The notes beneath the pieces are model-generated. The model ran no database searches. It saw only the letters and a list, made by a program, of their open reading frames with translations, and was not told where the DNA came from. This document shows, piece after piece, positions 39,694 to 43,135 of a stretch of 64,000 nucleotides of DNA (positions within the stretch are counted from its first letter, which is position 1; each line of letters begins with the position of its first letter). The DNA is from Thozetella sp. PMI_491 (taxonomy: Eukaryota > Ascomycota > Sordariomycetes > Chaetosphaeriales > Chaetosphaeriaceae): positions 806,001 through 870,000 of the forward strand of contig MU270022.1 in the NCBI GenBank assembly GCA_021432635.1. The letters are read 5' to 3'. Position numbers and translations under genes: made by a program.

Positions 39694-42353
39694 TTATTGC
39701 TGCTGTTGTGACTGCGACGCATCGTAATGCGGATCAGCCTCGCTGTCAGCGACGAAGCTCATGTCCATGGAATACAGCCCAGCAAAGTCAATTGAGGGAT
39801 CCATGAAGCTTAGTTCCTCAGAAGATAGTAGTTGTGAGTCAGTATTAACCCCCGCAGTGCCATGTCTAGGGAGGTTTCCTAATCCCGTCAAGGGATCGCT
39901 TGACGAGAAGCTCGGCGTGAGAGTTCCAACAGGTGGCCCCGGTGCCAGCTGCCCAAAAGCTGGACGGTTGGTCACAGTCATATTGACTGAAGAGGAGCGG
40001 GTGGTGTCATGCGACGGCGGCGGCCCTTCCCAGGAGTTATCAGAGCTCTGTCGAGCATGAGACGACCCCACTAGTCCTCTCGTCGAGAGATCGTCGAACG
40101 AAGTTGCGCCTGCGGTAAGACACCGATCGGACATCGCCAGTAGTTCCTTCTTGCGGCTCTGGTTATTTTTATAGCGCATATACTTGGCCTCATTTTCGCA
40201 ACGAGCAACTGCTCGAAGGAAGTGGTCCTGGACTCTGCTGTACCACTGTGGATCGAAGCCGTCAAGAGAATCAACAAGTTCGTGAAGGGATTCCAGATAC
40301 ATCTTAGACAGCTCAAAATGCTCCATGACGACGTGATAGTCTATTTGAAGATGTCAAATAGAGCTTTAACGAGGTTTAGAGAATGTCGGGTAGAATACTC
40401 ACGTGGATCCATTGCTTGGCTATCGCTCGGAAATAAATAATGCCACAGCTCCACCCACAGCTCCTCATCGCTTTTCCCGGGCCTGCTTGATCGAGTGGTA
40501 AATACATTAAATGTATTCGCATCAATCCCTTCCAGGGGGTTGAGCTCCTTGAAAACACAAGACGGCCCTCGAAGATGGGATTGAAGCTCGCCTTCGGACT
40601 GGTAGATTTGCTTGCAGCGCTGGCAGCAAACGCCATCTGGCTGTTTCCGTCGGTGCTTCTTGAGGATATGCTGGCTGGCTGGCTGTCAGAGGACATCTCC
40701 TCATCCATGACTGTTCTTATAACTTACCGAACCTGAGAGACTGAGTCGAACCATGTCATAGCGCATGAATATGCTTCTCTGACACTAAACCTGTCTGGGT
40801 TCCGTTTCCGATATGGGCAACTAAATCTACCGACACGTTCACCGGTGCATTTGAGTCTTTTGGTCACTTTTAACGAAGATCTTTCGCCATTTGTGTCTTG
40901 CTGATCGTCCTTGATACCTCGTTTTCTCACACCTGGCTGAAGGTTCTCGGTGTCCGGAGTCGTAGCGTTGCTAGAAGAAGGGGTTTCTTTGCTGGGACCC
41001 CAGTTATTGCCTCTAGACTGACCTTCGCCGAGATGATACTCAATACCTTTTACCAGATGGGCAATCAATGGTCTGAGGAACTGTGGAGTGAGGTTCGCTT
41101 CCCTGATTGTGAGCCCAAAAACAGCTTGTAACGTGGCTTGCAGTATCTCGATCTCTTCGTCGAGGAATTCGTCATCCGATGCCAAGAAGTGATACCCTAA
41201 ATCAACTGCTGATTCCGACTGGGCATAGATCTCAGAGCGCTCTCTGTCGAACCCAGGGGAGCCTGGGGCCGTAGTTTTCGTAGTCGCATCAGAAACACTG
41301 ACAAGGGAGTTTGGTGGCTCTCTGTCCTCATATAACTTAGTCTCGGGCTTATTTCGTGATGGTGCAAGGGCCTTAGAAGCTGTCCGTGTAGTTGATTTCC
41401 ATGCCCTATGCTCAGGACCCGAAATTGCGATATGTGTGATTGCTGAGGCGGGTGGTGGACCGAACGGAGTGTGCTCCGTGAGTTGTGGGAACAGCCGATC
41501 GGCTTCAAAGCTGGAGGAAAGTGTATGGGTCATTGCGCCGTCAGGTTGCAGGATTGCTTTGGCCCCATTGTTGTCCTCGTTTCGTTTATCCTCGCTGCAG
41601 CTACACTGCTTCGAATATTAGCGCAGTACCTTAGAAACATCTTCCGATACGCTCGGGAGTTCCTCGCATACCTTGTCTGACTTGTGAAATTTCGCACTTT
41701 TCTTCTCGCGTCCGCGCTCTCTCTCTATAACTATTTCCTTTTTCCTTCTATTCTCGTCCTCGTTGCAATTTTCCTTCTCCCACATCTCAATTATAGGATC
41801 AAGATTTTCATCATGAATTCTAGCATCTGCGAAGGAAGCTAGAGTCTCTTTTAACATTCGCCGTACACTCGGAGCACAATCGTGGCGGAGTAGCTTTTTG
41901 GCGGTATCGGTGAAGCTTGTATCGATGTGCTTGGTGAATATTGCCCCTAAGCTATAGGAGAGAGTATATAAGAGTAAGATAGCATTATACTGATATGATG
42001 GGTTGGCGCAGTAATCATTTTCGAGGAATCTCTTGATTAAGCGCGCACACTCCCAAACTCCAAGAGTCGACAGCTCGGCAGCATTGATTATTGTGTTGAG
42101 AGATTGGTTGATCTGGCCCTGAAAAAGGCAATTGATTAGTATTCATGCAAATAGCCTGAGGGTGACGATGAAATAAAATTTGATCATACCCATGAGCTCC
42201 ATCCGGACTCGCAGAATTGTATCTAGAGCATATCCAATCAGCACAGAATCCCAAATTGACACGCCTAGAGAGCCTGCATACTACAAGTTGCGTTACGATC
42301 GCTTCTATAGACCCACTAGCGGGGCCCGATGTCAACTTTTCATATCCTGTCAT
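39694..42353 (-). CDS. VHS/ENTH-like plus fungal C2H2 finger protein
   Basis: Predicted 781-aa protein. Exons: 42353-42285, 42222-42190, 42118-41672, 41605-40728, 40674-40403 and 40340-39694; all phases agree. Residues 10-140 form a helical domain (INQSLNTIINAAEL, ECARLIKRFL, APSVRRMLKETLASF) that looks like VHS/ENTH, the membrane-trafficking fold. The C-terminal half is the fungal module FSCPYRKRNP then QVRQHILKKH and finger C493-x2-C496-x12-H509-x5-C515, with EELWVELWHYLFP after it. The tail is disordered and Gln-rich. The fourth exon could also start a separate gene at ATG 41533, because a stop codon lies in the 66-bp intron at 41671-41606. That intron has good GTATGC, CTAAT and CAG signals, so I favour one gene. 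The domain call for the first part is from pattern only. Confidence 0.6.
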
Positions 42354-42397
42354 GCAATAACTCGCAGTTAGCCAAGGCTTATCTATATGCCTAACGG

Positions 42398-43135
42398 TCA
42401 AAGGTTCTTCAGGATTGCTAATAACTGTAGAGGGTCAAGCGTACCAACAAGCCGGTCGCTTCGGAGGCGAAGCTTGATTGAGTTGAAGGCTTGCTCGTAC
42501 AATGCCTTGCGTTGAGTCTGCTCAATGAAATTTCGCCTTGCATATGGGACATGTGGGACAGCGTGTTGAGGAGATACCGACGGAGTAACAAGTCCAGTAT
42601 GTGAAAAAGGCCCTTGGGCTTGGATTGGCGTTTGGACTTTGAATGGGGTTTCGGTTCGGAACGGCGACTGGGTTGGCAAGGACGGCCGAGCTTGGAAGGG
42701 CGGAGCCGGGTAGTTTACAAGATTATAATCGTTGGCTGGAGGAGCGGCTATCTTCCCATCGTCCTCTTCATCTTCCCGGGCGACTTCGAAGTCCGATCGC
42801 CCTCTACGCTCATTCGGCTCCCCATGCTGGGGTATATGTCAGAGTCATTTATTATGCTTGTCCTTAAATACTGAGACATACGGAGTTGTATCTATTCAGA
42901 AGTCCGGAGATATCGTCAGAGGAATATTCGTAGAGCTTTTTGTCGTTGCCGAAGATGAGGACGACGACGTCGATCGAACAGAGCACCGATAGTTCGTCGG
43001 CCTGCTTAAACAGACTGCCCTTACGCTGGTGGAAGCCACTAAGGAAGATACTGTGAGTACCAACCGTACGAGGCAGAGATGGTTGTTGAGCGGTTTCACT
43101 TACATAGATCGGCTCATCTCGGCCATTGCTTCCAT
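42398..43135 (-). CDS. MEF2/Rlm1-type MADS-box-like protein
   Basis: Predicted 205-aa protein. Exons: 43135-43104, 43038-42882 and 42826-42398, with introns of 65 and 55 bp in phase. The core HQRKGSLFKQADELSVLC, then SIDVVVLIFGNDKKLYEYSS and LLNRYNS followed by HGEPNERRGRSDF, matches the MADS box plus the MEF2-type extension. It binds CArG-like A/T-rich DNA as a dimer in related proteins, often downstream of the cell-wall MAP kinase. The usual basic N-arm (GRRKIEI type) is absent from the called start. A splice acceptor just upstream could add RQKPPKN, but no exon before it was found. The stop is 44 bp before the next gene, and a phase-matched intron (42444-42347) could instead fuse the two. 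Confidence 0.65.

Follow-up and report, generated by a model that had tools for sequence, protein, structure and literature searches.

A single gene made from pieces of three unrelated genes probably lies on the minus strand at positions 39694-43135 of the window (the 64,000-nucleotide stretch of DNA analysed here, part of contig C8 in the 72.3-Mb, 157-contig genome of the sordariomycete Thozetella sp. PMI_491). Judged by its spliced frame, this lineage-restricted chimera would encode one predicted protein of about 970 aa with a MADS box, a VHS-like domain and a fungal C2H2 module; from the gene structure, we infer one transcript and one protein. A sequence-only reading of the locus had already proposed such a gene and suggested that it might be a new kind of regulator. 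The single-gene claim now gains support from the acceptor and phase of the first intron of a VHS paralog and from the public annotation of the locus. As for the second suggestion, the three-part fusion is supported, whereas the regulatory role stays conjectural because the MADS box has no N-terminal arm.

Gene Model and Public Annotation

The minus-strand frames sit where they had been placed, and splicing the nine exons gave exactly 969 aa with a single terminal stop. Homology to the VHS paralog moves the donor of intron 4 by 3 nt, from 42284 to 42281 (GTATGC), with the gain of one Val, so the chimera model is 970 aa (an estimated mass of approximately 107 kDa from that length); the 970 codons of the joined frame contain zero internal stops. 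When the joined protein was searched with Pfam, one of the three claimed domains was recovered, namely the MADS box (SRF-TF, PF00319; 45.9 bits against a cut-off of 26), whereas VHS gave no match at E<=10 and all zinc finger models scored below their cut-offs.

The public model at this locus, GQ53DRAFT_803319 (P0012), is likewise one gene, with a 468-aa product assigned to PF00319 and a start ATG at 43126. It agrees with the 970-aa model at introns 1, 2 and 8 and at the 98-bp intron between the MADS and VHS parts, and three further splice sites are shared, namely two acceptors (introns 4 and 6) and one donor (intron 5). Otherwise P0012 uses different introns, through which the zinc module and most of the VHS core are lost.

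The MADS Part and Its Rlm1-Type Parent

Exon 1 (43104-43135, with the start ATG at 43135) is a remnant of the first MADS exon of Rlm1 from which the N-terminal arm has been lost, and exon 2 (42882-43038) holds the MADS core, with both flanking introns placed as in Rlm1. Exon 3 (42445-42826) continues with a MEF2-type extension retained after the MADS box, HGEPNERRGRSDF, which aligns to YNEPHESRTNSDI of MEF2A, and then with a Pro-rich linker. Exon 2 is 62-65% identical over 52 aa to ten Rlm1-type proteins, and the alignment of the window copy with the Rlm1 gene of the same genome (L002, on C4) runs from exon 1, over both introns and exon 2, into the beginning of exon 3. As judged from these alignments, exons 1-3 descend from an Rlm1/MEF2-type MADS gene, its two introns included.

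Rlm1 is a cell-wall-stress factor, and the N-terminal arm of a MADS box contacts DNA. The chimera shares with the C4 factor the MADS core, the two intron positions and the MEF2-type extension, but it has neither the N-terminal arm (MGRRKIEIK) nor the long C-terminal part. The arm is taken to be missing because the alignment of the MADS part to MEF2A begins only at chain position 11; the DNA alignment with the Rlm1 parent begins just 3' of the parental ATG and contains indels. At the other end, the best alignments to three Rlm1 orthologs stop at residues 156-161, and the Rlm1 C-terminal region is absent. The equivalents of K23 and K31 are Gln in the chimera, as read from the alignment. Directly before the exon 1 remnant lies a pyrimidine-rich stretch (43187-43158, minus strand) that ends in TTGCAG; because it resembles a 3' splice site, an unannotated upstream exon is possible, and such an exon, if present, might restore the MADS arm.

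Ascomycetes usually carry two MADS genes. In this genome, four MADS loci were found by search: Rlm1 on C4, the window copy, a locus in two pieces on C97 that we take to be Mcm1, and an odd one on C138. This last locus (L004, C138:17948-21073; frame 1261-1719, minus strand) is a fourth, divergent MADS locus scoring 36.9 bits, with a 401-aa frame alongside on the opposite strand.

The VHS Part and Its VHS-GAT Parent

An intact VHS-GAT gene on C127 (public protein P0016) is the paralog of the VHS part, with 55% identity over 111 residues and 47% identity over 160 aligned codons. Exon 4 (42282-42346) equals parental exon 2, exon 5 (42190-42222) equals parental exon 3 and is 33 nt long in both copies, and exon 6 (41672-42118) encodes the VHS helical core and a charged tail; introns 2 and 3 of the C127 gene have the same positions and phases as introns 4 and 5 of the chimera. 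This exon-by-exon correspondence shows that exons 4-6 are derived from a VHS-GAT gene (its exons 2-4), with entry via the first-intron acceptor and loss of the GAT domain. The chimera has VHS exons 2-4 in common with the ascomycete VHS-GAT protein, a membrane-traffic adaptor, together with the introns, the intron phases and the VHS fold, but lacks exon 1 and the GAT domain, which scores 69.5 bits in the parent and is absent from the joined protein (Pfam).

The intact VHS-GAT parent itself falls below the Pfam VHS cut-off (23.7 versus 29.8), and the identity of this part as a putative VHS domain rests on paralogy and modelled fold. The 149-aa VHS core encoded by exon 6 was modelled with AlphaFold2 from a 39-sequence alignment that took in 38 of the 121 VHS-GAT proteins; the model had a pLDDT of 81.9. 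Among its 12 best PDB matches in Foldseek, 11 were VHS domains of GGA or STAM/STAM2 (TMq 0.57-0.66), and the remaining one was an entry titled as an ENTH domain complex; the best E-value was 0.006, with none under 0.001. In a tree of 63 rows (62 of the 121 VHS-GAT proteins), the window VHS lies nearest to P0016, with unsure placing, and its branch length (3.94) is approximately 20 times the median (0.19).

The Probable MADS-VHS Join

The close spacing that had first suggested a joined gene was confirmed: the MADS frame stops at TGA 42400-42398, the ATG of the VHS frame lies at 42353-42351, and the gap between them (42397-42354) measures 44 bp. Likewise, the proposed intron at 42444-42347 has the features described for it, being 98 bp long and in phase 1, with a GTACGC donor, a CTAAC branch and an ACAG acceptor. 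The first intron of the C127 VHS-GAT gene, 100 bp long and likewise in phase 1, has its end at the position homologous to that of the 98-bp intron (the same junction is carried by P0016). From the acceptor to the shared GAAGCG/GAGGCG (Glu-Ala-Ile), the distance is 41 versus 44 nt, a difference of one codon that leaves the frame intact. Because the parental intron ends at this homologous point, the supposed VHS start at 42353 would be intronic by descent, and the loss of parental exon 1 and of the GAT domain together with the position of that start inside the old intron identifies the locus as a chimera. No other single observation supports joining MADS to VHS as strongly as the parental acceptor kept in phase.

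When the junction was shuffled 5000 times, 46 shuffles contained an intron that linked the flanking frames with no stop, by a consensus (GTRNGY, CTRAY, YAG) chosen after inspecting this intron and the one between the VHS and C2H2 parts. Likeness between the window and paralog intron sequences was rejected as proof of descent: 24/500 shuffles reach its score, and several unrelated intron pairs are as alike or more alike. Since this likeness is weak and unspecific, the argument relies on acceptor position and phase. A further candidate, the end of exon 3 as a remnant of VHS exon 1, was also rejected; against the 101 of 120 ortholog N-termini that fit the chosen motif, the mean score was 15.7 versus 15.8 for shuffles, and 89/200 shuffles reach the observed value.

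The C2H2 Module and the Proposed VHS-C2H2 Join

Exons 7 (40728-41605; a linker and the first half of the zinc module), 8 (40403-40674; the second half) and 9 (39694-40340; a C-terminal region whose first part is common to the paralog on C78, with the stop at 39696-39694) make up the remainder of the gene, and the fungal C2H2/C2HC module itself (40557-40828) spans exons 7 and 8. At E<=1, 65 genome stretches match the C2H2 part, the first three being the chimera itself, and in a 15-sequence alignment all 8/8 Cys/His columns are kept. These matches place exons 7-9 in a large C2H2 family of fungi, with which the chimera also shares the LDGI/LEGI and W...LFP motifs; in the chimera, by contrast, the module sits behind MADS and VHS parts. 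In the nearest paralog, which lies on C78, the frames are interrupted at the same two intron positions (by reading), but the N-terminal part differs from that of the chimera. Downstream of the chimera stop, a 41-nt repeat occurs at 38906-39028 in three imperfect copies.

The predicted intron 6 (41671-41606) measures 66 bp and is in phase 0, with GTATGC, CTAAT and GCAG signals. The VHS frame stops at TAA 41620-41618 and the next C2H2 ATG is at 41533, leaving a gap (41617-41534) of 84 bp. The VHS-C2H2 join would thus rest on a consensus phase-0 intron, on this short gap and on an acceptor also used in the public model; homology does not support it. It is here that the best-surviving alternative enters, namely that a MADS-VHS fusion ends at the TAA, until which the VHS frame is open, and a separate C2H2 gene begins at ATG 41533. 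A related C2H2 protein, P0013 (409 aa, possibly partial), has its own N-terminus, so the C2H2 ancestor was probably a separate gene, and no counterpart of intron 6 was seen in the C78 paralog (by reading). Yet a stop-to-ATG distance of merely 84 bp, an intron that arises by the same consensus in only 101/5000 shuffles and an acceptor shared with a public single-gene model all argue against two genes, which we consider unlikely.

Two further observations concern the C2H2 family. A locus on C78 (L030, C78:292500-299005) has a tandem pair of its modules separated by a TPR-like stretch, seen by eye and with no Pfam match, and is another possible mosaic gene. A 717-aa frame on C46 (L028) carries the same module after a HET-like stretch, again seen by eye with no Pfam match; this arrangement suggests that the module may often take part in fusions. 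A Pfam scan aimed at other fusions involving the module gave no match; the C138 frame among those scanned was a different one from the MADS frame.

Selection and Coding State

No gaps occur in the codons aligned with the parents (149 in the VHS part and 92 in the MADS part), and the lengths of introns 4 and 5 differ between the window and the paralog (59/63 and 71/99 nt, respectively). Under the assumption that all first- and second-position change lies on the window copy, neutral drift to the observed divergence predicts 6.0-6.9 stops in the MADS and VHS parts together, where none is observed (P = 0.0023 or 0.0003; 3000 simulations each). The corresponding probabilities are 0.015 or 0.007 for the VHS part alone and, not significantly, 0.14 or 0.10 for the MADS part alone. 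Nonsynonymous divergence was lower than synonymous divergence in both parts (pN 0.34 versus pS 0.90 for VHS and 0.25 versus 0.63 for MADS), values that include the parents' own constraint. The VHS part is evolving fast, without stop or frameshift. The GC3 is 0.68 in the MADS part and 0.49 in the VHS part, and silent-site divergence is lower in the former, so the two parts may differ in age.

Near-invariant sites of the VHS orthologs were kept at 27/46 positions versus 39/75 of the others (P = 0.30), which indicates no preferential retention. The site-conservation and stop tests on the VHS part used 112 of the 121 VHS-GAT proteins, leaving out P0009, P0017 and seven judged truncated (75, 83, 96, 117, 129, 132 and 134). 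Because near-invariant sites are lost as readily as others, the old VHS function is not what selection preserves; taken together with the long branch, this indicates that the function has changed or been relaxed. The same two observations, the loss of the MADS start and arm, and the extra introns with which the public model skips domain parts would also fit a decaying chimera, transcribed or not, that no longer yields a working protein. We regard such decay as improbable, since the frame is free of internal stops, drift seldom leaves the MADS and VHS parts so, the VHS core is still modelled as a VHS domain and every zinc ligand is kept.

Alternative Origins and Occurrence Elsewhere

The remaining alternative, three tightly packed genes (MADS, VHS-like and C2H2) joined only by chance, draws on the usable ATG and stop in every frame, but it is the least probable reading given a VHS ATG inside the parental intron, a parental acceptor kept in phase, gaps of 44 and 84 bp, the improbability of both introns arising by chance and a public model that joins the parts. 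Two other explanations were tried and rejected. RIP does not account for the AT-richer region, as the two indices computed lie outside the RIP range, and transposon capture does not fit flanks that are single copy save two short matches (55 and 75 bp) on C94. Of 10 window frames scanned with Pfam, 7 matched a family (ferric reductase twice, GH76 twice, an aromatic-acid/FUSC-type transporter, DUF6536 and 2EXR), and none matched a transposon family. The two GH76 genes, at 16759-17952 (plus strand) and 45112-46422 (minus strand), lie about 27 kb apart in the window, the second being about 2 kb upstream of the chimera start.

Three protein searches, bound by a length window and an exact-word requirement, were made with residues 1-370 (11 matches from 2912 candidates), with the C2H2 part (4 matches from 7995 candidates scored) and with the parent VHS-GAT protein (498 matches, the best 120 of the 498 being considered). 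Among the matches listed, no MADS-VHS or VHS-C2H2 protein other than P0012 was found. Titles and abstract openings retrieved in a literature search gave no report of a MADS-VHS-C2H2 fusion protein. Few partner domains of MADS proteins are known to us.

Possible Function and Significance

In the mechanism that we propose, the product of the joined Rlm1-type 5' piece, VHS exons 2-4 and C2H2-family gene would retain the MADS/MEF2 dimerisation part while the DNA-contacting arm is gone. For that reason, it is conceivable that the chimera could pair with Rlm1 or with itself without normal DNA binding, and the zinc module (through nucleic-acid or protein binding) and the VHS interaction surface would then redirect or block the Rlm1 partner. 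Such a role as partner or inhibitor of Rlm1 is plausible but tentative. Equally speculative is the fuller picture of a working three-part regulator that would have arisen by exon shuffling in one lineage and would act on or via Rlm1, with an armless MADS dimeriser, a VHS domain taken over from membrane traffic and a zinc module for binding.

The public annotation includes the gene, yet its 468-aa model leaves out the VHS and zinc parts. With intact relatives of all three parts in one genome, the making of the chimera can be traced, and its MADS-VHS join reuses a parental intron acceptor in phase. The locus may offer a natural MADS variant that dimerises without DNA binding, with an intact Rlm1 in the same strain for comparison.
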